The notes under the pieces: generated by a model
The model's database searches: none
Told to the model about the DNA's origin: nothing
What the model saw: the letters and a program-made list of their open reading frames with translations, nothing else
DNA from: Acidaminococcaceae bacterium
GTDB taxonomy: Bacteria; Bacillota; Negativicutes; Acidaminococcales; Acidaminococcaceae
Assembly (NCBI GenBank): GCA_017554485.1
Contig: JAFZIG010000042.1
Location: 1-61,479 of the forward strand
Reading direction: 5' to 3'
DNA length: 61,479 nt
In this document: positions 5,400 through 52,668 of the stretch, piece after piece
Numbering within the stretch: position 1 is the stretch's first letter
Layout: each line of letters starts with the position of its first letter
Made by a program: the position numbers and the translations under genes

Positions 5400-6005
5400 T
5401 CAGACACTCAGCATTACCTCCATCAAATCCATGACACGTTTATAAAGTCCCAGCTCTTTCGCGTAACTGGAAAGATTGTTCAGGTTTTTCTTACCATCTG
5501 CAACATAAGCGTTAATTGCTTTGTTGAATGTTTCGTTGTCTAGCTTTGTCCGATACTTGAAGCAATCGCAAATCGTTCGCTCTCGGTCATAGATAAAAAG
5601 AGTTGTTCCATCAAAAGAACCTTTGGTTTTTCCGATTTCAAAAACATCTTTTTGAACGAAATATGCTTTTACCGGAACTACATCAAATTTTAATCTCGTC
5701 AGCGAAATGGAACGCGGCACCGCTATCGTCCATACGCGTGGTGCAAAGTCACTGTATCCGTAATAAAACAGTGCGGATTCCACGCAGACGATTCCGTCCG
5801 GAAGAAGCGCAGAAAGATATTGCGCTTCTGTTATTGTTATATCATTCGCAAGCTGATAAAAGCCTTGCCGAATCCGTTCAAGAACTCCTTTGTTGCAAAG
5901 TTCACTGATATCCGGTTTCGACAGACCCGCCGCAAGAAAATCTGCGGTTTTCGCAATGCTTCCAATATTCTTTATGACTGATTTTGCAATTTCATTTTTC
6001 TTCAT
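5400..6005 (-). CDS. AbiEi-family antitoxin/transcriptional regulator
   Basis: 201 residues. The N-terminal 55 residues form a winged helix of the AbiEi_4 type: SIAKTADFLAAGLSKPDISE then VLERIRQGFYQLA. The following domain has CVESALFYYGYSDFAP, then VWTIAVPRSIS and DRERTICDCFKYR, all usual for AbiEi antitoxins. In type IV AbiE systems AbiEi represses its own operon and AbiEii is a nucleotidyltransferase toxin that modifies tRNA. No AbiEii-like gene follows. A clear promoter with a near-palindrome at the start site lies upstream (6036-6082), consistent with autoregulation. Confidence 0.85.
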   Translation of the reverse strand: MKKNEIAKSVIKNIGSIAKTADFLAAGLSKPDISELCNKGVLERIRQGFYQLANDITITEAQYLSALLPDGIVCVESALFYYGYSDFAPRVWTIAVPRSISLTRLKFDVVPVKAYFVQKDVFEIGKTKGSFDGTTLFIYDRERTICDCFKYRTKLDNETFNKAINAYVADGKKNLNNLSSYAKELGLYKRVMDLMEVMLSV

Positions 6006-6035
6006 ATTTTAAAACTTTCCACATACAAATTTTAC

Positions 6036-6050
6036 AATCAGTATCCGATT
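6036..6050. promoter_or_regulatory. Imperfect palindrome, candidate AbiEi operator
   Basis: AATCAG-TAT-CCGATT is a 15-bp near-palindrome (arms differ at one position) placed just downstream of the -10 box of the AbiEi promoter, where a repressor would block initiation. AbiEi proteins are known to bind inverted repeats in their own promoters. Assignment here is inference from position. Confidence 0.4.
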
Positions 6051-6053
6051 AGT

Positions 6054-6082
6054 ATTATATCAGAAGCGGTCTTTATATGCAA
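6054..6082 (-). promoter_or_regulatory. Promoter of the AbiEi gene
   Basis: On the minus strand: TTGCAT, a 17-base spacer, then TATAAT with an upstream TG (extended -10). Initiation would fall near 6047, giving a leader of about 40 bases to the ATG at 6005. This is one of the best sigma-70-type promoters in the window. Confidence 0.65.
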
Positions 6083-6180
6083 AACATTTATTAATTTATT
6101 GTTATTAAACACCGAATCCGGCAGACCCACTGCTACCAGCTTCCCTGCACATACAATCAACAAGCTTGTTATGCCAGCCT

Positions 6181-6196
6181 GGTCGTAATTACGACC
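6181..6196. promoter_or_regulatory. Perfect 16-bp palindrome
   Basis: GGTCGTAATTACGACC is a perfect inverted repeat with no spacer, typical of a dimeric regulator site. It lies about 120 bases upstream of the AbiEi promoter and 190 bases past the end of res. Which protein uses it is unknown. Confidence 0.4.
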
Positions 6197-6206
6197 AACT
6201 TTGAAA

Positions 6207-6236
6207 CGCCAACCCGCTTGTGGTGCGGGGTTTGGT
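6207..6236 (-). terminator. Possible terminator hairpin after res
   Basis: On the minus strand a GC-rich stem (CCCCGC paired with GCGGG, extended by CCAA/TTGG with small bulges, loop ACCACAA) is followed by GGCGTTTC. The U-tract is poor. It is the only stable hairpin between the res stop codon and the AbiEi gene. Confidence 0.35.
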
Positions 6237-6388
6237 TTCCTTAACTCTTATGTTTTTAAAGGTAGAACCTTATTTGAAGCTTTGATAGCAATAACAGTAC
6301 GATAGTAAATTCAAACTTCCTGAGAGTGGAAGCTTTGGGTTTAGGCAAAAAAACGCATGAATGGAACTTGCATTAAAGCCTGTCATAC

Positions 6389-9300
6389 TTACCCCTTTAT
6401 CAACTCTTTTAGTGTTTCATAATTATCCACCACATGGTACATCACATTATTTCCACTTATCGCCTTAAAGTGTTCCGTAGCGCAATGGATCTTGGATTTT
6501 TCAATTTCACGCAATTGCATAGAAGACATGGAACCTTTTGTCTCCGCCACAAAGTAAATGTGTTTGACGTTGCCTTCATAAAATGCAATGGCCCAGTCCG
6601 GATTGTATTTGCCAACCGGAGTTGAAATGTAAAAGCCGCCAGGGAGTTTCACATACACAGCCACATCCTTGTCCACGTCCAGCTGTTCCGCAAAGTTTTT
6701 CTCATTGGTTGAATCATAAATCAGATGGTCATACAAATGTTTTTGGGTCTTTATGGCGTTATGGTCAAGCTTGCCTTTGAGAGTCGGTTCTGTGAAAATA
6801 TCAGTATCATGTTTTTCATTCAGCTTGTTGTATGTGATGTGCTGCACAATCACTGTAGCCTTTTCTTCGTTAATCAGGCGCGCAGCTTTTATCATAAAAT
6901 CTTCCGGGTTATCTTTAAACTGCATAAATGTTTTTTCATCAATGCCCTTCAAAATGGCTACGATATCTTTGCGCGTAAGACCCGTGTCCTCTACCAGTTT
7001 GCCAATCAAATCATACTTCACGCTGCTGTTGGCCGCGATACTGGTTTTCGCATTATAATTGTTTTTATCTTCGCGAGACTCAACAACAAAAGAATCTCCG
7101 TGCTGCAACGCCTCTCTTGATTCAATCTGGGTCATGGAACCGGTTACAACCTTAAAGTAAATTTTAGCAACCCGAAGTTCCCTATCCAGCCTGGCAATTG
7201 CTTTTTGAATCAGTTCTGCAGAATCAAAGTCAACCACATAGGCACTCTTGGCATTGATGCGGTTCCATAATTCCTTAAACTCCGCCATTTCCAGCTTATC
7301 CTGACTAAGTTTGGCTTCCACATTGTTCGCGCGGGCATCTTCCGGCATCGTGGCGCGGCTGTCGTAAACGGAATCCAGAATCTCTATAATGGAAGCTACG
7401 CAATCCTTAACCTTATCCGCAACCTTGACCGCATTATTCTTTTTATCTTCGTAATAGGTATCTGTCAAAATACCGTCGTCGTCAATGTAATCGTTTCTGA
7501 TCAAACTGCGATAAATCGCATTGGCCAGTTCCATATCCACAACCTGGGTATTGCCTTCACTGTCTTGAATCGTTTTGCCCTGGAACAATTCAGCCGTAAC
7601 AGAACGCGGCCTGTCGGAAACGGCTTCCGCAATTTCATTCTGCAGGCCTCTGGCAAAACTTTCATAACTCTCGCTGGCAATAACCGTCAGTACGTTAATC
7701 TTATGTACATCGCTGCCCAGCACGTTACTGTCCATGCGTTCCCCGTCCTGGTTCACGCACAGGCGCAGTCCGCGACCCACTTCCTGGCGTTTGCGCACTT
7801 CGCTGCTGCTTTGCTTTAGCGTGCAGATTTGGAACACATTGGGATTATCCCACCCTTCCCGCAAAGCTGAATGGGAAAAGATAAACCGCACCGGGGATTT
7901 TTTCGGGTCCCGCTCCAGCAGCAGCTCCTTATTTTTCATAATCAGATCATAGGCATCAATATCGTCAGAGGTTCTTTCCTTTTTATCATTCAGTTTGCTG
8001 TTGGTGAGATGTCCTTTCTTGTCAATGGAAAAATAACCGGCATGAGTGTCCTGCGCTTTGATTGCGCCAAGATATTTTATATATTCTTCTTCCCCAAGCC
8101 GCAACTGCAAATGATTGATTACGTCATTGTATTCTTCCTCAAACATGTTGGCGAAGCTGCCATTTTGCGGTTGCCCGGCTGCATCATATTCCTTGTAATG
8201 CGCTACTTCATCAATAAAGAATAAGGACAGTACCTTAATACCTTTATAAAACAGTTCTCGTTCCCGTTCGATATGCGACAGAATTGTTTCCCGGATCTGG
8301 ATGCGCCGCAACTGCTCTTCACTCACTTTTCCAGTCACATCACCGGAAAACAGCTTCACTCCATTTAAAAACGAAACAGAATTATCCCGTCCGTCAATGA
8401 AACTTACCACAAAACCGTTTTTGTATTCATCCAATCCGTTGGAATGGTCATACAGGTTATAACCCTGGCCAACCGTTTTCGTTACCTGTTTAATACCGCT
8501 TTTCGTTTTGCAGTCAAACTGGATGGTAGCCGTGGGCGCTGCTTTATCGGAAACATTAACACCCTGCAGATATACATAGCTTTCTGTTGCCGTAGTGCCG
8601 GAAGCCGTAACTGCTTTCACCGATATTTTCTTTACCAGCTGCTTGTTGTACGCTTCAATGGCATCCAAACGGTAAATCATGTTATAGATACTGTCCAGTT
8701 TATGGGTTGCGGAATACCGCAGCGTCAGCAGCGGGCAAAACTGTTTCAGGTTTTCCTTTGTCTGCTTGCCTTCTACGGACTGCGGTTCGTCGATAATCAG
8801 GATCGGATTGGTCTTGGCCAGAATATCAATGGGACGCCGGGAACGGAATTCATCCAGCTTCATGTAAATGCGCCGGGCATCCTTGCCCTTGGCATTAAAC
8901 GCCTGGGAGTTGATGATCATCACATTGATGGAATTATCTGAAGCAAACCGGTCAATTTCCGTCAGCTGGGCAGAATTGTAAATGAAATAGCGAATCTTCT
9001 TTCCGTACTCTTCCGCAAAATGTTCTTCCGTTGTCTGGAACGATTTATATACACCCTCGCGGATGGCGATGCTGGGCACCACGATGATGAACTTGCTCCA
9101 GCCGTAATGCTTGTTCAGTTCATACATTGTCTTGATGTACGTATAGGTTTTGCCAACGCCGGTTTCCATTTCAATGGTCAGGTTGTATCCGTTGGCGCGG
9201 CCTTCCAGCTGTTCCGAAGGCTTCAGGAGATTTGCTCGCTGTATCTTCTGTACCCGATCCAGAATGATATTATCCGTAAGACCGGGGACAATAGGCTCAT

Positions 9301-9466
9301 TCTTCCAGCCGGTAAAAATCTCGTCTTCCATTAAACCCATCTGTAACTGTTCCGCGCCGCGGTCAATCATATAAGACGGCGTCAAATACGGCTGCCCGGC
9401 AAACACATCCACCACAGCCCTAGCGGCATCCGCCTGAAACTTTTGGTGCTTATATTGCAGTTTCAT
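6389..9466 (-). CDS. res: Type III restriction enzyme, Res subunit (helicase-nuclease)
   Basis: 1025 residues, usual for Res. The superfamily 2 helicase/translocase has Walker A METGVGKTYTY (residues 102-108), motif II IDEPQS (226-229), and motif VI QEVGRGLRL in the C-terminal RecA half, preceded by SALREGWDNPNV. The C-terminus carries a PD-(D/E)XK endonuclease: NPDWAIAF (PD at 956-957) and FVAETKGS (E975-x-K977). Res cuts DNA after two Mod-bound, head-to-head unmethylated sites communicate through ATP hydrolysis. It starts 16 bases after the Mod stop codon; AAGGGAG lies upstream. All catalytic motifs are intact, so the enzyme is probably active. Confidence 0.95.
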   Translation of the reverse strand: MKLQYKHQKFQADAARAVVDVFAGQPYLTPSYMIDRGAEQLQMGLMEDEIFTGWKNEPIVPGLTDNIILDRVQKIQRANLLKPSEQLEGRANGYNLTIEMETGVGKTYTYIKTMYELNKHYGWSKFIIVVPSIAIREGVYKSFQTTEEHFAEEYGKKIRYFIYNSAQLTEIDRFASDNSINVMIINSQAFNAKGKDARRIYMKLDEFRSRRPIDILAKTNPILIIDEPQSVEGKQTKENLKQFCPLLTLRYSATHKLDSIYNMIYRLDAIEAYNKQLVKKISVKAVTASGTTATESYVYLQGVNVSDKAAPTATIQFDCKTKSGIKQVTKTVGQGYNLYDHSNGLDEYKNGFVVSFIDGRDNSVSFLNGVKLFSGDVTGKVSEEQLRRIQIRETILSHIERERELFYKGIKVLSLFFIDEVAHYKEYDAAGQPQNGSFANMFEEEYNDVINHLQLRLGEEEYIKYLGAIKAQDTHAGYFSIDKKGHLTNSKLNDKKERTSDDIDAYDLIMKNKELLLERDPKKSPVRFIFSHSALREGWDNPNVFQICTLKQSSSEVRKRQEVGRGLRLCVNQDGERMDSNVLGSDVHKINVLTVIASESYESFARGLQNEIAEAVSDRPRSVTAELFQGKTIQDSEGNTQVVDMELANAIYRSLIRNDYIDDDGILTDTYYEDKKNNAVKVADKVKDCVASIIEILDSVYDSRATMPEDARANNVEAKLSQDKLEMAEFKELWNRINAKSAYVVDFDSAELIQKAIARLDRELRVAKIYFKVVTGSMTQIESREALQHGDSFVVESREDKNNYNAKTSIAANSSVKYDLIGKLVEDTGLTRKDIVAILKGIDEKTFMQFKDNPEDFMIKAARLINEEKATVIVQHITYNKLNEKHDTDIFTEPTLKGKLDHNAIKTQKHLYDHLIYDSTNEKNFAEQLDVDKDVAVYVKLPGGFYISTPVGKYNPDWAIAFYEGNVKHIYFVAETKGSMSSMQLREIEKSKIHCATEHFKAISGNNVMYHVVDNYETLKELIKG

Positions 9467-9482
9467 TTCGCAACTGTCTCCC

Positions 9483-11426
9483 TTAAATTACTTTGACTCT
9501 CGTATCCGGCGCTAACATCTTGAAAATTTCAGTGAGGTTGATTTTAGAGGGACTGCTTTCAAAACTGGAATCACGGAACACAGCACGCAGCGGTTTCCGT
9601 TTTGCAATCGTTTTGATAACAGACTCCGGAACATTTTCATCAAAGCAGGCAATCAAGTCACCGTCGTTATATGTATGTACCGTACAATTCTCAATCTTTT
9701 CAGATGTGTAAGGCAAAGAAAGCGGCAGCCCCCACTCCAACAGGCAACCAAAAAGCAAATCCAAATCCGCCCGGTCTTCTTTCACATTGGATTCCATCAG
9801 CGAAAGCATATCCTGTTTATATTCGTTGGCAGAATAATAAACATCATTCATATTACTGTCGTCAAGTTTGAAAACACGGAAACCCACATCCAAATCTTGC
9901 GTGATTAACGGTTTTTCTTCTTTGATTTTTGCTCCGGCACGACGGATACGTTCTTTGCCAATTTCACATATATTATTAAAGCCCGCCTTAAAAGCGTCAC
10001 TATTTTCATCACACCGTTCAGGTAACTGTACCATTATGAATTTTCTTTTTATTCCATCTTCAACATTCTGTTGTATAACTGCATGTGCAGTGGTGGCAGA
10101 ACCAGAAAAGAAATCCATAACAATATCATCATTGTCCATGCCAACCATTTCGATTGCTTTTTTTAAAAGAAATACAGGTTTTGAATAATCAAATACACTA
10201 CATCTAAAAAGACTTTTAATCTCTGCCGTTCCATTTTGATAATTAATTTCAGCATCTTCCCAAATTGATTTTGCTTTTGTTCTTCGTTCACCTTCACGTT
10301 CAAGGTAATCTTTTTGGAAAACATCCCAAACATCTTTTCCATTTCTATTAACTTTTTTTCCTAAAAGCAGTTGATAATTTGATTCGACTTTTTCTTTCGA
10401 CCATCTCCAAGTACCATCTTCCATAGTAGTCGGCTGAACTGGGAGTGCTTTTTCAGTATATGTTTTATTATGTTCGAGTGAAATAAGCCCGGTTTTAGGA
10501 TTAATAAAAATAGGGAAATATAAATTTGGTCTTTCAGATCTACGCCAAAACCCACCTCTCATTCTTAAGCCCAAAAGGCGATAACTGCCAAATTCATCTT
10601 TAAATTTGTATTCATCGGTCATCGATTCAGTTAATTTATGTCCTATTATTTTCCCGTTTAGAGCTTCTTTACAGTAAACAATTAAGTATTCATGTAGATT
10701 AGCTAGTTCGCCAATTGACATTGAGCCACGAGGGTTACTTTTAATTATAATTACACCGACACGATTAGTCCTTCCAAAAACTTCATCAAGTATTTTTAAA
10801 CAATTATCAACTTCATGCTCATCAATACTGACAAATATAACTCCATTTTCGCTTAATATATTTCTCGCAATCATTAATCTTGCAAACAGCATCGAACACC
10901 AATCAGAATGAAATCTTCCATTTGAATCACTGTTTTTAAAAAGATGTTCACCTTCTTCACCAATATTACCTGTCTGCTCGTCATAATCATCCTGATCCAT
11001 TTTAAAATCATCACGGTAAATAAAATCATTCCCCGTATTATACGGCGGATCAATATAAATCATCTTTACTTTTCCAAGATAGCTTTCCTGCAAAAGTTTC
11101 AGTACTTCAAGGTTATCGCCTTCAATATAAAGATTTTCTGTTTTATCCCAGTTTACACTTTCCTCCAGGCAAGGACGTAGCGTTTTACGGATTGGTTTGT
11201 TCGCTTCCACAATGGCAGCTTTTTTACCAACCCAGGTAAATTCATAGGCTTCGTTGCCTTCAATTACATCACTTGAAAGCATCTGGCGTAGCAATTCAAA
11301 GTTAATGGCTTTCTTTGGCTTGCCATTCTCATCAACAGTTTCCGTAATGCAATTCGGGAACAGGTTTTCAATCTTTTTAATATTTTCAGAAACCATGTCA
11401 AGCGTTTCCATCCGCATTTTTTCCAT
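9483..11426 (-). CDS. mod: Type III DNA methyltransferase, Mod subunit
   Basis: 647 residues from the ATG at 11426, chosen because AAGGGGG lies just upstream; an in-frame TTG at 11441 is less likely. It is a beta-class N6-adenine methyltransferase: motif IV MIYIDPPYNTGNDF (DPPY at 126-129) comes before motif I MDFFSGSATTAHA (440-445). The residues between them form the target recognition domain, and that stretch of DNA (about 10200-10950) is visibly more AT-rich than the ends of the gene, which suggests allele exchange. Mod methylates one strand of an asymmetric site and gives Res its specificity. No simple repeat for phase variation was seen. Confidence 0.95.
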   Translation of the reverse strand: MEKMRMETLDMVSENIKKIENLFPNCITETVDENGKPKKAINFELLRQMLSSDVIEGNEAYEFTWVGKKAAIVEANKPIRKTLRPCLEESVNWDKTENLYIEGDNLEVLKLLQESYLGKVKMIYIDPPYNTGNDFIYRDDFKMDQDDYDEQTGNIGEEGEHLFKNSDSNGRFHSDWCSMLFARLMIARNILSENGVIFVSIDEHEVDNCLKILDEVFGRTNRVGVIIIKSNPRGSMSIGELANLHEYLIVYCKEALNGKIIGHKLTESMTDEYKFKDEFGSYRLLGLRMRGGFWRRSERPNLYFPIFINPKTGLISLEHNKTYTEKALPVQPTTMEDGTWRWSKEKVESNYQLLLGKKVNRNGKDVWDVFQKDYLEREGERRTKAKSIWEDAEINYQNGTAEIKSLFRCSVFDYSKPVFLLKKAIEMVGMDNDDIVMDFFSGSATTAHAVIQQNVEDGIKRKFIMVQLPERCDENSDAFKAGFNNICEIGKERIRRAGAKIKEEKPLITQDLDVGFRVFKLDDSNMNDVYYSANEYKQDMLSLMESNVKEDRADLDLLFGCLLEWGLPLSLPYTSEKIENCTVHTYNDGDLIACFDENVPESVIKTIAKRKPLRAVFRDSSFESSPSKINLTEIFKMLAPDTRVKVI

Positions 11427-11437
11427 TTTTTCCCCCT

Positions 11438-12841
11438 TCAAGATTCAAATGCAGCTATATCAGATAACATGCTTACAACATCAAGTAACTGTGTTTTTGT
11501 ATATCTGCTAAAGCGAAGACTGCCAACAACTTTTTCTTCTTGAAAATATTCATTTGTATCTTTAAAAATAGCTTCATATACCGATTGTAATTTATCCTCT
11601 AATTTAACAGTTGTTTTACCTTCAGTATTTTGATAATATGCTTCTCCCTTTGATAACAATCTTGAAAAAGCCGACGTTCTTATTACTTCGCTTGTCAATA
11701 TATCAATCATTGGTTTACAATTTTTCCCATTTATGAACTCATAGTAGAGATTTATATCACACATTAGTAACCCAATCATTATAGGCACTATATAAACCAA
11801 TCCAAATTGGAATGCAAAACCGTCCATTGTATAGATTCGGTTCTCGCTATAATCAATCTTATTGCCAACTGTTAACCTAGCAATACGGTAATACTTTTCT
11901 GTTTCCCTTACACTGAAATTAAAATGCTTCCACACTTCTTGGCATACCAATTCAAAGTAATTCATGGTTTCTTTCAAGCCAATTGACTGGTAGTATTTTT
12001 TCATATCAGCAGGTGGAAGTTCAATACGAAAATCAAAAAATCTATCTAAATACCGGATTGCATCAAAATCGTTTCCGTAACATTTTTTAATAGTATGTTG
12101 TAATTCTTCAAGATTAACTGAAAATACAAACGTAATTCTATCATTGGAAAAATAGTGTTTAATTCTTTCAAGCAGCTTAACAGCATAGTTGGGTTTACAT
12201 CTATCAAGTTCATCAACAAATATAATTAAGCGTTCACCTTTTTCTGGTAACAATGAATTAAAAAAATCTGCTATTTTATTATGAATCTCCTTCTGTGCTT
12301 TTATTTCAGCTAATGGCTCCTTTGTTTCTAACAATTTAATCAGACCTTCACCGTTAAAGCCTGTAAAAAAGGAAACTATGGGAGCAGCAAATTCTAATAC
12401 TTTTTTTAAATCAAAATTTTCTCCAAAAGAATATTCTGAAGCCGTACTTCTTATGATTTCATTTGTTAGTGAAAGAATTGGATCTGAATCATTATCATTT
12501 GCCCAGGCATCATAATAAACACAGACTTGTGGTTTTAAAATTGAATCACCGCTTGCTTGGTCCACAAAGTCCCCAAACCTCTTTTTCACGGTTTCTTTGT
12601 CTTCGTCAGTCAATTCTTTGATATAGGGGTTATATGTATCAAGCACTATTTTAGTTTGTTTTACAAAAAATGTTTTTCCGTTGCCCCAGCGTGCATCTAT
12701 TGCAATTGAGCATTTATTATCTAAAGCATTACAAAGACGAACAAAGTGATAAATGAATTGGTTACGTCCTATCGTATCATTCTTTAATGTTTCCAGAAGA
12801 TTTTCTTTTGTCGGTTCCAGTTCAAATGATTTAATTCCCAT
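11438..12841 (-). CDS. KAP-family P-loop NTPase
   Basis: 467 residues from the ATG at 12841 (GAAAGGA nine bases upstream). Walker A is DARWGNGKTFFV (residues 50-57) and Walker B is LIIFVDELDRCKP (205-214), both diagnostic of KAP NTPases. The insertion between them has hydrophobic stretches (ILEFAAP-IVSFFTGF) and a later one near residue 345 (FGLVYIVPIMIGLLM) that could be the membrane-inserted helices typical of the family. KAP proteins are signalling or scaffold STAND-like NTPases, several of which act in phage defence. The gene is very AT-rich and stands 11 bases before mod. A KAP gene is not part of a standard type III system. Confidence 0.9.
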   Translation of the reverse strand: MGIKSFELEPTKENLLETLKNDTIGRNQFIYHFVRLCNALDNKCSIAIDARWGNGKTFFVKQTKIVLDTYNPYIKELTDEDKETVKKRFGDFVDQASGDSILKPQVCVYYDAWANDNDSDPILSLTNEIIRSTASEYSFGENFDLKKVLEFAAPIVSFFTGFNGEGLIKLLETKEPLAEIKAQKEIHNKIADFFNSLLPEKGERLIIFVDELDRCKPNYAVKLLERIKHYFSNDRITFVFSVNLEELQHTIKKCYGNDFDAIRYLDRFFDFRIELPPADMKKYYQSIGLKETMNYFELVCQEVWKHFNFSVRETEKYYRIARLTVGNKIDYSENRIYTMDGFAFQFGLVYIVPIMIGLLMCDINLYYEFINGKNCKPMIDILTSEVIRTSAFSRLLSKGEAYYQNTEGKTTVKLEDKLQSVYEAIFKDTNEYFQEEKVVGSLRFSRYTKTQLLDVVSMLSDIAAFES

Positions 12842-12981
12842 AGTATTATATCCTTTCAACCAGCTTTCATTTTCTAAATAAACGGTATTCTTCTTTTCCT
12901 AAAACGGAATTTCCTCGTCAAAAAACTTCTGTTGTTCAGAATGTTTTTGACATTTTCTAACGTTGCAATAGAAAAACCCTT

Positions 12982-13038
12982 TTAGAACGGTTCTGGATTC
13001 GGGTACAGTTTCGCAATCAATTCATCTAACTTGCTCAT
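12982..13038 (-). pseudogene. 18-codon remnant resembling HsdS N-terminus
   Basis: The ATG overlaps the stop of the DUF1016 gene (ATGA), and the reading frame gives MSKLDELIAKLYPNPEPF then TAA. The opening MSKLDELIA.L.P is the usual start of type I specificity subunits (HsdS). The frame then closes, leaving about 140 bases of non-coding sequence before the KAP gene. I read it as the stump of a lost hsdS gene. The similarity covers only about a dozen residues, so it remains tentative. Confidence 0.4.
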
Positions 13039-14135
13039 GTAACTTGCCCTACGGCTAACTCTGCCTCAATCTCTTCTATCGTGGGAAGAGAACTGCGATA
13101 ATTTTCTGGCATGAAGTGGCTGATATCATATTCCGAAATTCCCATTGGCTGGCTGCTTGCTTCCAACGCGTATTTAGCCTTGACATTATCTTTGGAACGG
13201 CAAATCAGCAGCCCCAACGTCGGAGTATCCTTTTCCCCTTTCAGCTGATGATTCACCGCCACCATATATGTGCCAAGCTGTCCCATATCGCCGGATTCGA
13301 ATTCTCTCACCTTAACTTCTACCACAACATAGCAATGAAGTTTTATGTTATAGAAGAGCATGTCAACAAAGTTTTCTGTTTCACCTATTTCAAGCCGTAC
13401 CTCACGTCCAACAAACGCAAATCCGTTACCAAGTTCCAGCAATAATTTTTCAATATTATCCATCAATGCGTCTTTCAATTCTTTTTCATCATATTTTTCA
13501 CGAATGGTAAGGAAATCAAAATTGTAAGGATCGCGCGTAACAGCCTGTGCCAAATCGCTCTGCGGTGCAGGCAGCGTTAATGCAAAGTTGGTCACTGCCT
13601 TTCCCTGTCGTTCATAAAGGTCGGTATCAAGGAAATTTAACAAGACTGCTCTGGACCAATTGTTTTCAATGGTTTTATGCACATAGAACAACGCTCTTTC
13701 CTGATTACCTTTGCATTTATCTAAAATTACCTTTATATGACCCCATGGAATCGCAAACACAATTCCGTTATCTAATTGCGCCTCAGCCTGGGGCGTAATT
13801 AATCCATCTTTTAATTGCGCCTCAGCTTGATGCGTAATTAATACATCAGGAAACGCTTTATAGAATTGGTGCATATATAATAAATTTCTCGGTGAAAAAG
13901 ATTTTACATCAGGCAACTCATCACTAAGATCTTTGCTAACCTGATTATAAAACCTGCTTCCCCACGCATAGGACGCTTTCTTTGCATCCATATCGCACCC
14001 TAATATCCAGTAAAAGCGTAACATTTCGCTGTTAACTTTCGCAGCAGCTTTTAACTGGCTTTGCCGGAATCTCTTGCTGACTTCCTGTATCCAATTCCGA
14101 TATGAATCATCTTGTTTTATCAGTTTACTACTCAT
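13035..14135 (-). CDS. DUF1016 (YhcG-type) PD-(D/E)XK nuclease domain protein
   Basis: 366 residues. The N-terminal DUF1016_N domain begins YRNWIQEVSKRFRQSQLKAA and includes RFYWILGCDM and SPRNLLYMHQFYKAFP. The C-terminal PDDEXK domain has the metal site spread over ENFVDMLFYN (Asp) and CYVVVEVKV (E-x-K). YhcG proteins are common passengers of type I restriction loci, usually between hsdM and hsdS. The start overlaps a 34-codon HsdM-like tail (ATGA) and the stop overlaps an HsdS-like head, as expected if it came from such a locus. Residues about 120-145 contain an imperfect repeat (LITHQAEAQL / LITPQAEAQL). Confidence 0.9.
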   Translation of the reverse strand: MSSKLIKQDDSYRNWIQEVSKRFRQSQLKAAAKVNSEMLRFYWILGCDMDAKKASYAWGSRFYNQVSKDLSDELPDVKSFSPRNLLYMHQFYKAFPDVLITHQAEAQLKDGLITPQAEAQLDNGIVFAIPWGHIKVILDKCKGNQERALFYVHKTIENNWSRAVLLNFLDTDLYERQGKAVTNFALTLPAPQSDLAQAVTRDPYNFDFLTIREKYDEKELKDALMDNIEKLLLELGNGFAFVGREVRLEIGETENFVDMLFYNIKLHCYVVVEVKVREFESGDMGQLGTYMVAVNHQLKGEKDTPTLGLLICRSKDNVKAKYALEASSQPMGISEYDISHFMPENYRSSLPTIEEIEAELAVGQVT

Positions 14136-14236
14136 ACCTCTTGCTCTCCTTCAATCTCCGCAATGATTTTGTCAATTTCATCGCGCAGTACCTGCTCCCG
14201 GGCAACGATTTCTATTATCTCCGCATTGAGCTTCAC
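14132..14236 (-). pseudogene. 34-codon remnant resembling HsdM C-terminus
   Basis: From a GTG that overlaps the DUF4391 stop, the frame gives VKLNAEIIEIVAREQVLRDE then IDKIIAEIEGEQEV and a TGA that overlaps the start of the DUF1016 gene. The pattern (...EL..EQ..LR..ID.IIAEIEG) is typical of the coiled C-terminal tail of type I DNA methyltransferases. No upstream hsdM sequence is left. The frame also contains the AAGGAG that serves the DUF1016 gene, which may be why it was kept. Confidence 0.45.
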
Positions 14237-14883
14237 ACGCTATCCAACATTTTCTGCAGCTTTTTCACTTCTGCATTCAGCTCTACCTGCCGGTTAAACT
14301 GTACTTCTTTCCTTATTTTTGCCAGCAGGTCATCAATCTGTTTTTGTAATATCCGTTTGCGTTCGCTGCGCTCCACATCGTTTTGCAAATTGCCTTTTGA
14401 GTTTGTTTCAATATTATTTCCGGCAATTTGCCGCACATAGTTTTCATACACAGCATCAAGGCTGCGCCCGGCAAATGCTAATTGCATTTTGTCTGTCGGC
14501 AACCAGTCAGTATAATAGTATTTCTGCACTTTAAAAGCATAGCCGCCGGAAGCTGTGGCTTTTTTATAAGCGATGCAGGCTCGCTGCTTATCGTCATATG
14601 TCAGCACAAACAAAATATGATACGGCAGCGTCCGGTCAATTTGTGTCAGTACGGCTTCATCCAGTTCCGTCTGGTTCAGCAAAATTTCAAACACCTGCAA
14701 CTCTTTTACGTTTTCTCCCACCACAAGGTTTACGGTTGATGTTGCTATTTTGTTCCGCCAGTATATGATACGAATCTGTTCCGCAAAGTGTTTCTTCACT
14801 ACAGGTGAAAGGGAAAGGTTGCCGTAAAATTTCTGTTTGGGTATGCGTTTATTAAATTCGGTAGTTTTCGGAAGTCCCAGCAT
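14233..14883 (-). CDS. DUF4391 family protein
   Basis: 216 residues. The start MLGLPKTTEFNKRIPKQKFY, the central ELQVFEILLNQTELDEAVL and YHILFV...ACIAYKK, and WLPTDKMQLAF with SLDAVYENYVRQI follow the DUF4391 pattern. The C-terminal 50 residues form a charged coiled coil (QKQIDDLLAKIRKEVQFNRQ). DUF4391 genes occur next to SNF2 helicases and type III-like mod/res genes in many bacterial genomes (family-level recollection); biochemical function is unknown. The ATG follows GAGGTG and lies 4 bases after the helicase stop. Co-translation with the helicase is likely. Confidence 0.85.
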   Translation of the reverse strand: MLGLPKTTEFNKRIPKQKFYGNLSLSPVVKKHFAEQIRIIYWRNKIATSTVNLVVGENVKELQVFEILLNQTELDEAVLTQIDRTLPYHILFVLTYDDKQRACIAYKKATASGGYAFKVQKYYYTDWLPTDKMQLAFAGRSLDAVYENYVRQIAGNNIETNSKGNLQNDVERSERKRILQKQIDDLLAKIRKEVQFNRQVELNAEVKKLQKMLDSV

Positions 14884-14887
14884 GTAG

Positions 14888-17800
14888 TCACCTCACTACA
14901 AGGAAACAAATTAATTCGAAATCATCCAGCCCGGAAACATCGGAAACCAAAGCAGAGGTTCCTCCTGCTTTAAACAAACTGTCAATGTCACTTTCTTCTT
15001 TCACATCCATAATAGAGCTTATGGATTCGGAAAGCAGTTCGGAAACCTCGCTCATGTCCCGTCCGTCTTTCGTTTCTTTGTTAAAGACGCTGCACAGGGT
15101 AATGTTTGGTTCACTTTTGCCTTTGCATAAAAAGCGGAATGTGTCCAGCAGCTTTTTCGGGTCAAGGTAATCGCGCACAATCTCGCCTTCGCTGCTGATA
15201 TAAACCATATAAAATGGATGCACCCGGTTGCGGTGGTCTATATTGATGCTTTCATTGATATTTTTCAATACGAACAGCACGCCCGGCGGCGCGTCCGTAC
15301 CGCTTGCAACTACGGCATGGATGCCTTTCGGCGCGTTTTCAATTTCTTCGTGCCGTTTCAGGTATTCCAGCAGGTCAAGGCGGAACTCATTCAGCCCCAA
15401 ATCCATAATGCAAATGCCGTTGGACATATCTTCCAGGTCAACTACTTCTTCCCGCAGCCGTTTCAGCTGCTCCCTGCGGTATTCCAAATCGCCTTTTTCT
15501 TCCGCGTTAATCAGGTCGTCGTCCCCGGTGGAAGTCATAACGGAAATTTTCATGCGGGTTTCCACACGGCTTTTCAGATTGATGTATTCGTCCAGGTCCA
15601 TATCCGGCCAGAAGTTTACAAGCTGTATGTACTGGTTTTGGCTGCCGATACGATCAATGCGGCCAAAGCGCTGGATGATCCGCACCGGGTTCCAGTGAAT
15701 ATCGTAATTGATAAGGTAATCACAATCCTGTAGATTCTGCCCTTCGGAAATACAGTCTGTTGCAATCAGCACATCAATATTTGCATTGCTTTCCGGCATT
15801 AGGATATCTTTGCGTTTTGATATGGGTGAAAAGGCAGTAAGCACGGTGTTCAAATCACTTTTCAATTTGGGAATGGTTGTTTTACCGTCAACAGAGCCAG
15901 TGATTTCTGCTGTGTCCAAGCCAAAGTTTTTCTTTACAAAGCTGCTCACATTTTTGTAAAGGTAATCTGCCGTATCAGAAAACGCAGTAAAGATGATAAT
16001 CTTTTTGTTGTCTTTATTAATGGGTTTTTCTAACTTCTGCCGGATCAGTTTGTAAAGTGTCTGCAATTTTTCATCGTGTACAGGCGTTATGTCTGCAACC
16101 AGACCCTGCAGTGTTTCCAGTTGCGTTGCGTCATTGGTTAAATCATGCAGCCAGCTTTGCAGATCCATATCCGCCAGATCAATTCTCACCTTTTTGCCAA
16201 CAGTAAAGTAATCCGTGTTCTGGTCGTCACCGTCAAAGTCACGGGCATCAGAATACTCTGTCAGTTCCACTACTTTGCTTCCGGATTTAAAAGCATGGAT
16301 CAGTTCAATGGTGCTGTTGATTAACTGCTGGATTCGTTTCAGGGTCAGCCGGAATGAATAGACAGAGCTTTCCAGCCGTTTCAGCAGGTTGATGCTCATC
16401 AGGCGGCGGATGCCTTCTTCACGCCCGCGCTGGGACAGGTTATCTAAACTGCTGTCGGTTTGTTCAATATATTTATCTAAGCGGGAATCAAAAATGAAGT
16501 TTGAAGGTGTGTAAACGGTAAGGTTCAGCGTCATAAGCAGTTCATAAATCTGGGTGTAATTGATTTCCTTGTCGCTACTGGTGAGGCTGGGAAATACGGA
16601 AACAGGTTTCAACCGTTCCGGGAATTTGCCAATCTCTTCCGTATTGTAATATTTTTCAATATGTTTCCGGGACCTGGCAATGGTTACGCTATCCAGTATT
16701 TCAAAGAAGTCAAAATCCAGCGCACGCAACAGGTTCTGGGTGGTGCGCTTCTCTGCAGGCAGTTTGCTCCACTCGTTGAAGGTACGCTGTGCGTTACGGA
16801 ATATATCTTCGATAGATTTATTTGTTTTCAGTTTGGCTTCAAACTGTTCCGGCTCCCCTTCATAGGCAAGTGCCAGCTGGTTGCGCAAATCGGTGAAGCG
16901 GTTGTTCACCGGCGTTGCGGAAAGCATCAGCACTTTCGTCCGCACACCGGCCCGGACGATACGGTCCATCAACCTCTGGTAACGGTTTTCCTTTGTGTTG
17001 CTATGAGTTCCAATGCCATTACGGAAATTGTGAGATTCATCAATTACGCATAAATCATAATTGCCCCAGTTAATCAAGCTCAAGTCTATGCCGTTGGATT
17101 TTCCGCCATTACGGGAAAGGTCTGTGTGGTACAGCACATCATAACGCAGGCGGTCTTCCACGATGGGATTGTTTTTATAATTGCTTTTGTAGGTGCTCCA
17201 GTTCTCTGAAAGCTTTTTGGGGCAAAGCACCAGCACGGATTTATTGCGGTTTTCATAATATTTGATTACAGACAAAGCCGTAAAGGTTTTGCCCAGGCCC
17301 ACGCTGTCAGCCAAAATGCAGCCATTGTATTTTTCCAGTTTGTTGATAATCCCCAGCGCTGCATCTTTCTGAAAATCGTATAACAGATTCCAGATTTTGC
17401 TGCTCTTAAAACCAGTCGCGTCATTTGGCAGCACGTCTTCGGAAATATCTTCCAGAAATTCGTTGAACAGGTTATATAGCATAAAGAAATAGATAAAGTC
17501 CGGTGCGTTTTCGTTATACGCGGCAGAAATGCTTTCAACCACAAGGTCAGTCACGTCCTGGAGCTTTTTGTTGTCATTCCATATTTCTTCAAAGGTGTTA
17601 AGGAGCTGCCGGACGATAATCGGTTCATTGGACTTCTGAACAAAATAATATGCGTTGTTGCCCCGCTCGCAACCCAGGTCTACCGTAGTGAACGCGTTAA
17701 AAGGCATATAAGAAGTTTCATCCACCGTCATGAAGCCCATCATCTGTTCCCCTGTGGTGTTGGATTTGAATTTAACCTTTTTGCGGATCCATTCGGCGCA

Positions 17801-18109
17801 TTCTTTCGCAATGGCTTTTTGTGTCAGCTCATTGCGCAACTTCACTTCAAACTCGGTTCCGTAAATGCTGCGTTCCCGGTTCAAACGGGAAATATAAAAT
17901 TCCCGGCTTGCTTTGGGAGTTTTTTCTTTTAAAAATGTTGGCGATGTAAAAATGAAGCGAAGTTCTTCTACAGACTCCAATTGCTTTTTCAGTTCCTTAA
18001 ACGCATAAATGGAAAAACAGGCTGCCGCCACAGACATCTTGCTGCCTTTTTTGATGGTAACCTGCAAATCTTCTTTTACCGTGTTACGAACATTATCAAG
18101 AATCTGCAT
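14888..18109 (-). CDS. SNF2/DEAD-type helicase with N-terminal PLD-like domain
   Basis: 1073 residues from the ATG at 18109, where AAGGAG lies 8 bases upstream; an in-frame ATG 16 codons earlier has no such site. Residues 1-140 look like the phospholipase D-like N-terminal domain of such helicases (KGSKMSVAAACFSIYAFKEL, then LRFIFTSPTFL), but I see no HxK(x)4D catalytic motif. Helicase motifs: I LADSVGLGKTFTA (about 268-275), II CVIDESHNFRN, III LMLSATPVNN, V-VI ATDCISEGQNLQDCD and IQRFGRIDRIG. It is an SNF2-class translocase, expected to move on duplex DNA. It is the first gene of the defence cassette. Confidence 0.9.
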   Translation of the reverse strand: MQILDNVRNTVKEDLQVTIKKGSKMSVAAACFSIYAFKELKKQLESVEELRFIFTSPTFLKEKTPKASREFYISRLNRERSIYGTEFEVKLRNELTQKAIAKECAEWIRKKVKFKSNTTGEQMMGFMTVDETSYMPFNAFTTVDLGCERGNNAYYFVQKSNEPIIVRQLLNTFEEIWNDNKKLQDVTDLVVESISAAYNENAPDFIYFFMLYNLFNEFLEDISEDVLPNDATGFKSSKIWNLLYDFQKDAALGIINKLEKYNGCILADSVGLGKTFTALSVIKYYENRNKSVLVLCPKKLSENWSTYKSNYKNNPIVEDRLRYDVLYHTDLSRNGGKSNGIDLSLINWGNYDLCVIDESHNFRNGIGTHSNTKENRYQRLMDRIVRAGVRTKVLMLSATPVNNRFTDLRNQLALAYEGEPEQFEAKLKTNKSIEDIFRNAQRTFNEWSKLPAEKRTTQNLLRALDFDFFEILDSVTIARSRKHIEKYYNTEEIGKFPERLKPVSVFPSLTSSDKEINYTQIYELLMTLNLTVYTPSNFIFDSRLDKYIEQTDSSLDNLSQRGREEGIRRLMSINLLKRLESSVYSFRLTLKRIQQLINSTIELIHAFKSGSKVVELTEYSDARDFDGDDQNTDYFTVGKKVRIDLADMDLQSWLHDLTNDATQLETLQGLVADITPVHDEKLQTLYKLIRQKLEKPINKDNKKIIIFTAFSDTADYLYKNVSSFVKKNFGLDTAEITGSVDGKTTIPKLKSDLNTVLTAFSPISKRKDILMPESNANIDVLIATDCISEGQNLQDCDYLINYDIHWNPVRIIQRFGRIDRIGSQNQYIQLVNFWPDMDLDEYINLKSRVETRMKISVMTSTGDDDLINAEEKGDLEYRREQLKRLREEVVDLEDMSNGICIMDLGLNEFRLDLLEYLKRHEEIENAPKGIHAVVASGTDAPPGVLFVLKNINESINIDHRNRVHPFYMVYISSEGEIVRDYLDPKKLLDTFRFLCKGKSEPNITLCSVFNKETKDGRDMSEVSELLSESISSIMDVKEESDIDSLFKAGGTSALVSDVSGLDDFELICFLVVR

Positions 18110-18231
18110 AACTTCGCTCCTTAAAAAATGCAATTTACACAGTGTTCTATAGTCCAAATTTGAATAATTTGTTTATCATATGCAAAAGTTTTTATATTTT
18201 TGGAATCTACTTCCCCCCTTTTATTCTTATT

Positions 18232-18254: not shown

Positions 18255-18304
18255 AAAATAGACACAGCTTGAATTAATCATAAAACAAGCTGTGTCTGTG
18301 TGCT
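18255..18304 (-). repeat. 50-bp direct repeat, copy 1 (hairpin/terminator downstream of rpn)
   Basis: Identical to copy 2 (19391-19440) at 49 of 50 positions. It holds a perfect 12-bp stem, AGACACAGCTTG / CAAGCTGTGTCT, around a 14-base AT-rich loop. On the minus strand the stem is followed by ATTTTTA, so it could end the rpn transcript, which stops 72 bases upstream. The two copies bracket the Rpn nuclease gene. Confidence 0.85.
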
Positions 18305-18376
18305 TTTTCAATTACAGAGGCTATCGTTTTATATTATAAAATGTATTCCCACGACATTTCGTAATTTGCAGAAACA

Positions 18377-19270
18377 TTACTTGGACTTCAGTTTCTGGCA
18401 GATTTCGGCAATCTCCTCTTCACTTTTTCCGCTAGCTCGGAGGGCAGCAATGAAGTCTTTCAGCGCTTCAGCTTTACCTTCGGCTATTCCTTCTGCTTTT
18501 CCCTTTTCAAAACCTTCTTTACGCACAAAATCTTCCCGCGCCCGTTTGTCCCAAAGGTATTTCTGATGCTGTTCATAAGCGGTAATGCAAAGAGGATCTT
18601 TTACAAAATCTTTCTCAGCTTCCATTGCTGTACGGATATCGGCGTCTTCCATGGCAAGCTGCCTCCTTTCCTCCATCGTTGTCTTTGAAGATAAATACGC
18701 AAGCCAGCGTTCCAGCCGTTTCATTTTCCGGCTTCCATCGTGTTGCCATTTCGGCAATTCTACAAAATGAATCTCCAAATCCTTCGTCAGTGCGTGTTGC
18801 AAATCTTTTGTGTTCAGCACTGCAAAGCAACTGTGGTACTCAGGCCATTCTTCATCAGTAAACAACCGGTAGTCCAAAATATTGATGGTTACCGTACGGG
18901 CCAGGCTGTGGAAGTCTTCCCCTTTTTGCAGTCGACGATGATACAGCTGCGCCCAATAATGCAGGGTACGCCGATCCATAAAGTCATATTGCTGTAACTG
19001 GATTTCTACATTAACCAGCGTTCCGTCACTGCTTTTGCCTACCACATCAAGAACCACGCCTTTGCCTTGTTCCCTGTCCGGGTCAAGTTCCCTGTCAACA
19101 AATTCGAAATCTTTAATCTCTGCAGTCCCTTCAAATTCAAAGAAACTGTTGACTAACCCCAGTGTCAGCTGCTTCCGTTTTTCGTTTGCAAAAATATATT
19201 TGGCAAACGCGTCGTTCATGCGGTTCAAATCTTCAATTTTTAAAAATGCATTTTTCAAAACTTTGCTCAT
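18377..19270 (-). CDS. Rpn-family PD-(D/E)XK nuclease / transposase-like protein
   Basis: 297 residues from the ATG at 19270 (AAGGAAAG upstream), 14 codons inside the longest frame. The N-terminal segment MNDAFAKYIFANEKRKQLTL and LVNSFFEF are typical of the PD-(D/E)XK transposase (Rpn/DUF4351-type) family. The active site reads VVLDVVGKSSDG then VNVEIQLQ (D...E-x-Q). The helical C-terminus ends in a charged repeat (EKGKAEGIAEGKAEALKDF) that often varies in length. Rpn proteins promote RecA-independent recombination and some act in phage defence. The gene is bracketed by two 50-bp direct repeats, and stands upstream of the defence cassette. Confidence 0.9.
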   Translation of the reverse strand: MSKVLKNAFLKIEDLNRMNDAFAKYIFANEKRKQLTLGLVNSFFEFEGTAEIKDFEFVDRELDPDREQGKGVVLDVVGKSSDGTLVNVEIQLQQYDFMDRRTLHYWAQLYHRRLQKGEDFHSLARTVTINILDYRLFTDEEWPEYHSCFAVLNTKDLQHALTKDLEIHFVELPKWQHDGSRKMKRLERWLAYLSSKTTMEERRQLAMEDADIRTAMEAEKDFVKDPLCITAYEQHQKYLWDKRAREDFVRKEGFEKGKAEGIAEGKAEALKDFIAALRASGKSEEEIAEICQKLKSK

Positions 19271-19390
19271 GCAATCTTTCCTTTCTTTTCGGAACGATTG
19301 CCTCCGGCACAAAGCTTTTTACAATCCTGCTGCACACAAAACAGGAAAAAACTCTGCGCATATATAGTTTAGCACATTTTGAGCTATAAT

Positions 19391-19440
19391 AAAATAGACA
19401 CAGCCTGAATTAATCATAAAACAAGCTGTGTCTGTGTGCT
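19391..19440 (-). repeat. 50-bp direct repeat, copy 2 (hairpin/terminator downstream of LD-carboxypeptidase)
   Basis: Differs from copy 1 by a single base inside the stem (AGACACAGCCTG instead of ...CTTG). In an RNA made from the minus strand this change gives a G-U pair and keeps the stem; in plus-strand RNA it gives a C-A mismatch. That favours minus-strand function. It lies 80 bases past the carboxypeptidase stop and 121 bases before the rpn start. Confidence 0.85.
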
Positions 19441-51360: not shown

Positions 51361-52668
51361 ATGGGATTTTTTGACAGCATAATGAAAAAAAGGCAATGCT
51401 CCATCTGTGGGAAAGAGATGGGTCTGACAGAACGCAAGGAACTATCCGGAGGGAATCTGTGCGATAACTGCGCAAATAAGCTTTCCGACTGGTTTTCTAC
51501 GGACGCCCGTAAACGCTCCACTCCCCAGCAGATTCAGGAACAGCTTGCTTACCGCGAACAAAACAGGCAGGCAGTGGCACAGTTCCGTGCCACACGCACG
51601 ATCGGCAAGAACACAAAGCTTTATCTGGATGAGATGAACCGGAAATTTATGGTTTCCGCCGCAAGCAACCTGCAGGAAGACAATCCGGATGTCATTGATG
51701 CTTCTGCCATTACCAACGTTGCGGTGGATATCGACGAATCCAAGCATGAACTGCGGACCAAGAACGAGGAAGGCCGTAGTGTATCTTACAATCCGCCGCG
51801 TTATGATTACTCTTACGATTTTTATGTAGATATTGATGTCAGTCATCCCTACTGCAGTCACAGGCGCATTAAAGTGAACAGCAGCAGCGTATGGATCAAA
51901 TATGATTACCTGCAGTCCAGAGGTATGACCGGTTTTGGAAGCCGCAGCATGGGAAATTCTTTCAATGCAAGCGGAGATATGAGTTCGGCTGCCGGTATTC
52001 TGGGCGCTGTTATCACCGGCATTCAGAGCAGCATGAACGCAAATAATCCCGCTGCCATGTATCCTCCGGAATATCGCGAGAATATGGCTATTGCAGAGGA
52101 TATGCGCGTTTCGTTACTAAATTTGCGCCAGCCTGGATCAGCAGTTCCGAATACTGGCATGGGTATGGGTATGAACGCAGGCATGGGCACTGTAGGCGGT
52201 GTAGCCGGTATGGCTGCAGGCGCCGGGATGGCCGCCGGTTATCAGCAGGGCTATCCGCAACAGGGAATGCAACAGCAGGGGTACATGCAACAGGGTTATC
52301 CGCAGCAAGGTATGCAGCAAGGATTCCAGCAACAAGGTATGGGTATGCAGCAACAGCAGGGCTTCCAGCAAGGCTACCCGCAACAAGGCTTCCAACAGCA
52401 GGGCTATCCCGGACAGATGCCTCCGCAGGGATATCCGCAGCAGGGCTACCCCGGACAGATGCCTCCGCAGGGATATCCGCAACAGGGTTACCCCGGACAA
52501 ATGCCCCAGCAAGGCTACCCGCAGCAAGGATACCCCGGACAGATGCCTCCGCAAGGTTACCCGCAGCAAGCAACTCAGCCTCAGGCTGACGGCGCCTGGT
52601 TCTGCCCCAATTGCGGAACGCAAAACCAGACTAAGTTCTGCCAAAACTGCGGAGCACCGAAGCCTTAA
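51361..52668 (+). CDS. DUF4428-like zinc-ribbon protein with Q/G/Y/P repeat tail
   Basis: 435 residues; the only gene on the plus strand. The ATG at 51361 follows [19 protein letters not shown] is shared with the three-ribbon protein; the first ribbon is [16 protein letters not shown] beta-rich domain (residues 75-190) holds [12 protein letters not shown] and [20 protein letters not shown] Met/Gly/Ala-rich segment leads into about 110 residues of Gln, Gly, Tyr, Pro and Met. The end is a second ribbon ([18 protein letters not shown]). The tail resembles prion-like or phase-separating sequences. Cytoplasmic, function unknown. Confidence 0.85.
52402..52569 (+). repeat. Four tandem 42-bp repeats in the Q/G/Y/P tail
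   Basis: Four in-frame units encode [14 protein letters not shown] with one residue change (PQQ for PPQ) in the third. Third-position differences between units show they are not freshly copied. Looser Q-G-Y-P-Q-Q repeats precede them from about 52238. Slippage could change the tail length between strains. Confidence 0.9.

Follow-up and report, generated by a model that had tools for sequence, protein, structure and literature searches.

Probable duplicated transcript ends around a predicted rpn toxin–antitoxin gene of an Acidaminococcaceae bacterium and predicted end-to-end pairing of its mRNA

We analyzed a stretch of 61,479 nucleotides from an Acidaminococcaceae bacterium (contig JAFZIG010000042.1 of assembly GCA_017554485.1, hereafter the window) in which two near-identical 50-mers surround a minus-strand gene of the Rpn family. 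Rpn nucleases are widespread anti-phage toxins. It is likely, in our view, that the 50-mer is the duplicated end module of an RpnL/RpnS toxin–antitoxin transcription unit whose mRNA folds back end to end, and that pairing of a leader strand (S1) with a strand of the 3' untranslated region (UTR; S1') switches translation of RpnL. The unit would be ordered as promoter, leader, open reading frame (ORF), 3' UTR and terminator. S1 would pair with S1', and in the subfamily of the window gene (subfamily 1, or window-type) the loop of a 5' hairpin would also pair with a GCACACA strand beside the terminator. The covarying fold-back of these mRNAs has not been described for Rpn systems in the literature searched, and it is a more interesting result than the repeat itself, which is an explained and fairly ordinary outcome of rpn locus turnover.

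The pairing of S1 with S1' is supported by covariation in two rpn subfamilies of the same genus. Subfamily 2 has a different leader, starting directly after the -10 element, and the same arrangement (e.g. CTGCGGAAGAATCGTGC versus GCACGATTCTTTCGCAG). Here 12 of 21 pairs have changed on both sides, with 23 such cells (0/500 shuffles), and 85% of cells are paired versus 34–46% when slid. In subfamily 1, covariation was found at 7 of 18 pairs, again with 0/500 shuffles. Cognate ends beat swapped ends within subfamilies in a permutation test (0/20,000). With S1 fixed by leader homology and its partner sought in the 3' UTR, all 20 genes had a dinucleotide-shuffle fraction of 0.02 or lower, and 17 were below 0.01. 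Unanchored complementarity per gene, which is a weak test, gave p<0.05 for 9/25 genes of the genus versus 3/43 controls. Among 14 genomes of the genus, the subfamily-2 motif had 12 hits, all before rpn genes or at contig edges, and the subfamily-1 motif had five hits with 0–1 mismatch, all of them rpn leaders, and four more with 3 mismatches. A fold of the whole mRNA of the window gene contains 12 S1:S1' pairs, and S1, which stops some 20 nt short of the start codon, lies upstream of the Shine-Dalgarno (SD) sequence. The paired ends match no Rfam family. Covariation and shuffle tests thus argue for long-distance pairing between the 5' and 3' ends of the modelled rpn mRNA.

In window-type leaders S1 is predicted to have an alternative partner in the SD region (CAATCGTTCC with GGAGTGATTG, and variants). 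Since S1 can pair with the SD region as well as with S1', it is a shared strand with two partners. When S1 was blocked, the predicted accessibility of the SD increased in 5 of 7 window-type leaders. From the two partners of S1 and these accessibility predictions we infer a switch by which S1:S1' pairing would set RpnL translation according to the 3' end of the transcript. In the direction favoured for the window subfamily, nascent or 3'-trimmed RNA would have a hidden ribosome site, which would open once the ends pair. Judged from the geometry of the predicted folds, opening of translation by end pairing is at least as likely as its shutting. Transcription of the rpn unit, its folding in the cell and its regulation are likewise inferred from sequence.

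Several points weigh against this reading. S1' was delimited by visual inspection, and the alignments, of 12 and 8 sequences, are small. In subfamily 2, blocking S1 has a mixed effect on the SD. Contacts between the ends were found in the predicted whole-mRNA folds of 58/135 control genes versus 18/26, and such minimum-free-energy contact counts were dropped as evidence because control genes often show end contacts too. The other genera of the family that carry rpn genes showed no end pairing, and 29 rpn loci of the class showed no end complementarity. The upstream 50-mer (copy A) may be the leftover of an older array or the mark of a tail-to-tail integration. Its flank resembles rpn 3' UTRs weakly, with a nominal p of 0.005–0.11 against the paralogue tails and of 0.36 against the downstream 50-mer (copy B), and this is only suggestive of an older rpn relic. 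In E. coli rpnC, no single long complementary stretch was found between the 5' and 3' flanks. On present evidence, the end complementarity belongs to this Acidaminococcaceae genus.

Table 1. Features of the rpn locus (positions in the window; all on the minus strand)
Feature	Positions	Strand	Sequence or basis
rpn gene (RpnL), 297 aa, ATG start	18377–19270	-	SD AAAGGAAAG at about 19276–19284; PF12784, TIGR01784
Predicted internal RpnS, 91 aa	18377–18652	-	AAAGGAGG-cagcttgcc-ATG
-10-like TAAACT of rpn	19366–19371	-	TGTGCTAAACT; TGCTA(T/A)AAT kept at the same place in paralogues
5'-UTR hairpin with exposed GTGTGC loop	19307–19357	-	predicted in all 7 window-type leaders folded
Loop complementary to 3'-tail GCACACA	19330–19341	-	TTTTGTGTGCAG; 2 double compensatory changes, 14/500 shuffles
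S1, leader strand	19290–19307	-	CCGGAGGCAATCGTTCCG; covariation with S1', motif search, shuffle test
S1', 3'-UTR strand	18315–18329	-	AAACGATAGCCTCTG; partner of S1; 0/400 shuffles equally stable
GCACACA strand facing the 5' loop	18297–18303	-	inside copy B, opening the 50-mer
Repeat copy B	18255–18304	-	GCACACA strand, rpn terminator hairpin and U-rich tail; folding, diverged homologous paralogue tails
Repeat copy A	19391–19440	-	second tail copy; upstream of rpn, downstream of S66 peptidase gene

As originally predicted, copies A and B agree at 49 of 50 bases with a spacing of 1136 bp; with looser borders, the pair extends to 56 bp at 95% identity. On the minus strand both fold into a 12-bp stem with a U-rich exit, as in a terminator (-21.8 and -21.5 kcal/mol for the two copies). 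This stability was reached by none of 200 shuffles, and fold z-scores are below -5. The remark that the single difference would become a G-U pair and leave the fold conserved also holds, as this difference costs 4 kcal/mol in the plus-strand fold only. The hairpin is not reported by a consensus terminator scan; its 14-nt loop exceeds the 8-nt limit of that scan. In the source genome as searched (2.57 Mb, 177 contigs, 94% complete), exactly two copies of the 50-mer are present with up to three mismatches allowed, and they flank one rpn gene. This excludes a common genome-wide terminator. No copy was found in 58 other genomes of the family, and no rpn gene besides the window gene has the 50-mer. 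Phage and plasmid records contained neither the 50-mer nor relatives of the 1136-bp unit. This unit had been described as holding just the rpn gene and one repeat: the rpn gene is genuine, but a leader with conserved structure lies inside it as well. The original prediction did not include the pairing of the mRNA ends, although one of the paired strands is part of the 50-mer.

Close relatives of the window gene, with about 57–74% protein identity, are present in the source genome and in the same genus. The window-type paralogues have a homologous but diverged tail, composed of GCACACA, a terminator hairpin of the type GCAGCTTGC..GCAGGCTGC and a T-rich stretch. By this homology, copy B is identified as the 3'-UTR tail and terminator of the window rpn gene itself, and copy A as a duplicate of this lineage-specific tail, sited at the expected rpn -35 position. 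Local recombination or tandem duplication would have copied the tail, so that an orphan copy A now precedes the gene, where it probably serves as terminator for the S66 peptidase gene. In the source genome, a second rpn gene of the same family lacks a flanking repeat and ends in a diverged terminator and tail of its own. The 50-mer is therefore not a general Rpn signal. Its proposed role as a sequence-specific target of Rpn is not supported, given this second gene and the different sequences repeated at other loci.

The 600 bp on each side of rpn genes were compared, with ORFs of the same genomes as controls. A flanking direct repeat at E<1e-5 was found for 20 of 56 rpn genes of the family versus 5 of 308 control ORFs (Fisher 6e-14, the genes not being fully independent). 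At 11 of the 56 loci the repeat was present without a detectable second rpn gene in the flanks (p=1e-6). With the threshold relaxed to E<0.01, repeats were found in 27/68 true flank pairs versus 1/68 pairs drawn from different genomes. In the wider class, 7 of 26 rpn loci had a flanking repeat, one of them of 116 bp (99%) and beginning immediately after the stop codon. The sequence of the repeat, its length (tens to hundreds of bp) and its distance vary by rpn locus. The downstream copy usually starts within about 110 nt of the rpn stop codon and usually takes in the gene's own 3' UTR. The alternative in the original prediction that the rpn gene and its terminator were gained by homology at an existing terminator is compatible with the anatomy of the window locus, and flanking copies of 3' UTRs or terminators are far above chance. 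According to a published study, rpn arrays are the product of direct tandem duplication, of stretches that vary in extent, rather than of transposition (PMC10327210), and the flanking repeats fit local duplication or recombination at rpn loci in line with that report. It is worth noting that up to 19 rpn genes are found in one genome, and that one genome of the collection has tandem rpn arrays with about 1.1-kb spacing on four contigs (G036 contigs C5, C14, C20 and C27; L095, L096, L097, L121). The layout seen in the window, with rpn between direct copies of a terminator hairpin, recurs with other sequences in a different family of the class (G248:C1:1675118, L170; G212:C1:2248393, L169).

The window gene belongs to the Rpn family and has a PD-(D/E)XK Rpn domain. 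Its matches to PF12784 (E=3.3e-49, 168 bits versus a curated cut-off of 27.4) and TIGR01784 (E=1.6e-38, 133 bits versus a cut-off of 52.1) are strong, and by family membership its product is a predicted nuclease toxin. An internal SD and ATG are found at the identical codon in 8/8 window-type genes; AGGAGG is kept at 6/6 bases in seven of these and is one base off in the eighth. This internal SD-ATG is the expected start of a predicted C-terminal RpnS antitoxin. In one relative (G055:C75, L047), a minus-strand gene around 1501–1776 is a stand-alone rpnS-like gene that starts exactly at the internal start. A promoter immediately adjoins the internal SD and ATG by fusion, and S1' in the 3' UTR and the terminator are retained. 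Two further loci, L038 (G050:C22) and L046 (G048:C16), have C-terminal rpn fragments of 186 and 154 open codons with S1' and tail intact, which may be relics of internal deletions or solitary antitoxins. The -10-like element of the window gene was not picked up by a consensus scan, and the expected -35 position falls within the end of copy A. In many rpn promoters of the genus, from both subfamilies, a CTTCATAGAAA or CTTCATGGAAA element stands about 20 nt before TGCTATAAT (e.g. L034, L104, L108). This shared element could reflect a common promoter type or shared regulation.

Other explanations of the repeat and of the paired segments have to be considered. The 50-mer could be a target or attachment site, where homologous recombination between terminators would insert or excise an rpn cassette. 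The 50-mer does stand at both borders of an exact 1136-bp unit, and 3'-UTR repeats flank many rpn genes, including the terminator-hairpin repeats in another family. However, each locus has a different sequence and there is no second genomic target. No empty allele was found, in a search limited by the lack of close, intact orthologues of the flanking S66 peptidase gene among relatives. We regard this as a possible explanation, though an unlikely one. That the repeat arose by chance or is an assembly artefact, as could be feared from a genome in 177 contigs, is scarcely credible, as both copies lie within one contig, have different flanks, differ by one base and fold with the z-scores given above.

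The paired segments could also act as DNA rather than RNA. S1 and S1' would then be the terminal inverted repeats of a mobile element, with Rpn as its transposase. Inverted repeats would covary too, PF12784 is named a transposase, and rpn copies occupy different contexts. On the other hand, the conserved promoter and terminator lie outside the S1/S1' inverted segments, which are thus not terminal, and in subfamily 1 two paired segments are spaced differently at either end. There is no fixed-length target duplication, the flanking repeats being tens to hundreds of bp long and variously spaced. Neither inverted ends nor target duplications were found in the published study, whose authors argue against transposition (PMC10327210). 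This makes a mobile element quite improbable. A different alternative is that S1:S1' acts in trans: a shorter rpnS transcript bearing S1' would bind the leader of the rpnL mRNA as an antisense RNA. It is consistent with the conserved internal start, with the stand-alone rpnS of G055:C75, for whose S1' a leader in that genome is a potential partner (-18.8 kcal/mol), and with the internal transcription starts that produce an abundant short RNA from E. coli rpn genes (PMC10327210). A start of an rpnS transcript inside the window gene is, however, a supposition drawn from sequence, and we hold this alternative to be unlikely. The rpn genes of the genus may also be two-layer systems, in which the RpnS protein inhibits RpnL and a strand of the 3' UTR common to the rpnS and rpnL transcripts sets toxin translation by pairing, in cis or in trans, with the rpnL leader; we put this forward tentatively, as a rather doubtful generalization. 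For the window gene, a fold-back of the mRNA within one unit remains our preferred reading.

This reading can be compared with known systems. The Rpn toxin–antitoxins (RpnL/RpnS; E. coli rpnA-E; COG5464) have the same domain family and single-gene unit and an internal start for a C-terminal small protein, here predicted, and also form tandem arrays through direct duplication (PMC10327210). In the present genes, unlike those, the 5' leader and the 3' UTR are complementary and covary; PMC10327210 uses neither the word UTR nor the word untranslated. Long-distance end pairing and a choice of local structures around the ribosome site, here predicted, are features of the type I toxin mRNAs of aapA/IsoA and hok/Sok (PMC6733600). 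In the hok and aapA mRNAs, end-to-end pairing shuts translation (PMC6733600). These toxins are small hydrophobic peptides whereas the window gene encodes a 297-aa Rpn nuclease, and the 3' strand pairs with the SD itself in those mRNAs but upstream of the SD here. No antisense RNA gene was identified for the rpn locus from its sequence or by Rfam matches. Insertion sequences, too, are units of a single gene that occur in varying contexts and have inverted complementary segments close to their ends; they differ from the rpn units, which have promoter and terminator outside the inverted segments and flanking repeats without fixed length.

The rpn gene adjoins an SNF2 helicase gene downstream, followed by further restriction and defence-type genes, with the S66 peptidase gene on the other side. 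The defence-like cluster beside rpn (window positions 5400–18157) comprises an AbiEi-like protein, a type III restriction-modification pair, a KAP-type NTPase, a PDC-S02 nuclease, a DUF4391-like protein and the SNF2 helicase, which matches C3a139; some of these names were assigned by reading the sequence. The genus contains no close and intact orthologue of the S66 peptidase gene, and a remnant was found in G044 only (L029, G044:C16, 10040–10180), consisting of a short early piece and the last codons, with no rpn tail. Elsewhere in the window (52354–52563), a 42-bp tandem repeat encodes a stretch rich in Gly-Tyr-Pro-Gln.

The repeats, their copy number, the homology of the tails, the S1:S1' covariation and the conserved internal start are shown by the sequence itself. 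The window unit would thus be a protein toxin–antitoxin gene with a 5'-3' mRNA fold-back like that of hok and aapA, whose regulatory effect is predicted. In 2023, the reasons for the varying expression of RpnL and RpnS were stated not to be known, and additional regulation was suggested (PMC10327210). Covarying end-to-end pairing, if true, would provide a concrete regulator of this expression. The flanking-repeat statistic offers a testable route by which single rpn genes could be gained and lost without a transposase: the 3' UTR would be duplicated, and recombination would follow. Finally, the paired ends of the rpn mRNA suggest an extra control at the RNA level on a protein toxin, and a nuclease that is inhibited by a protein would then share a hallmark of type I toxin mRNAs.
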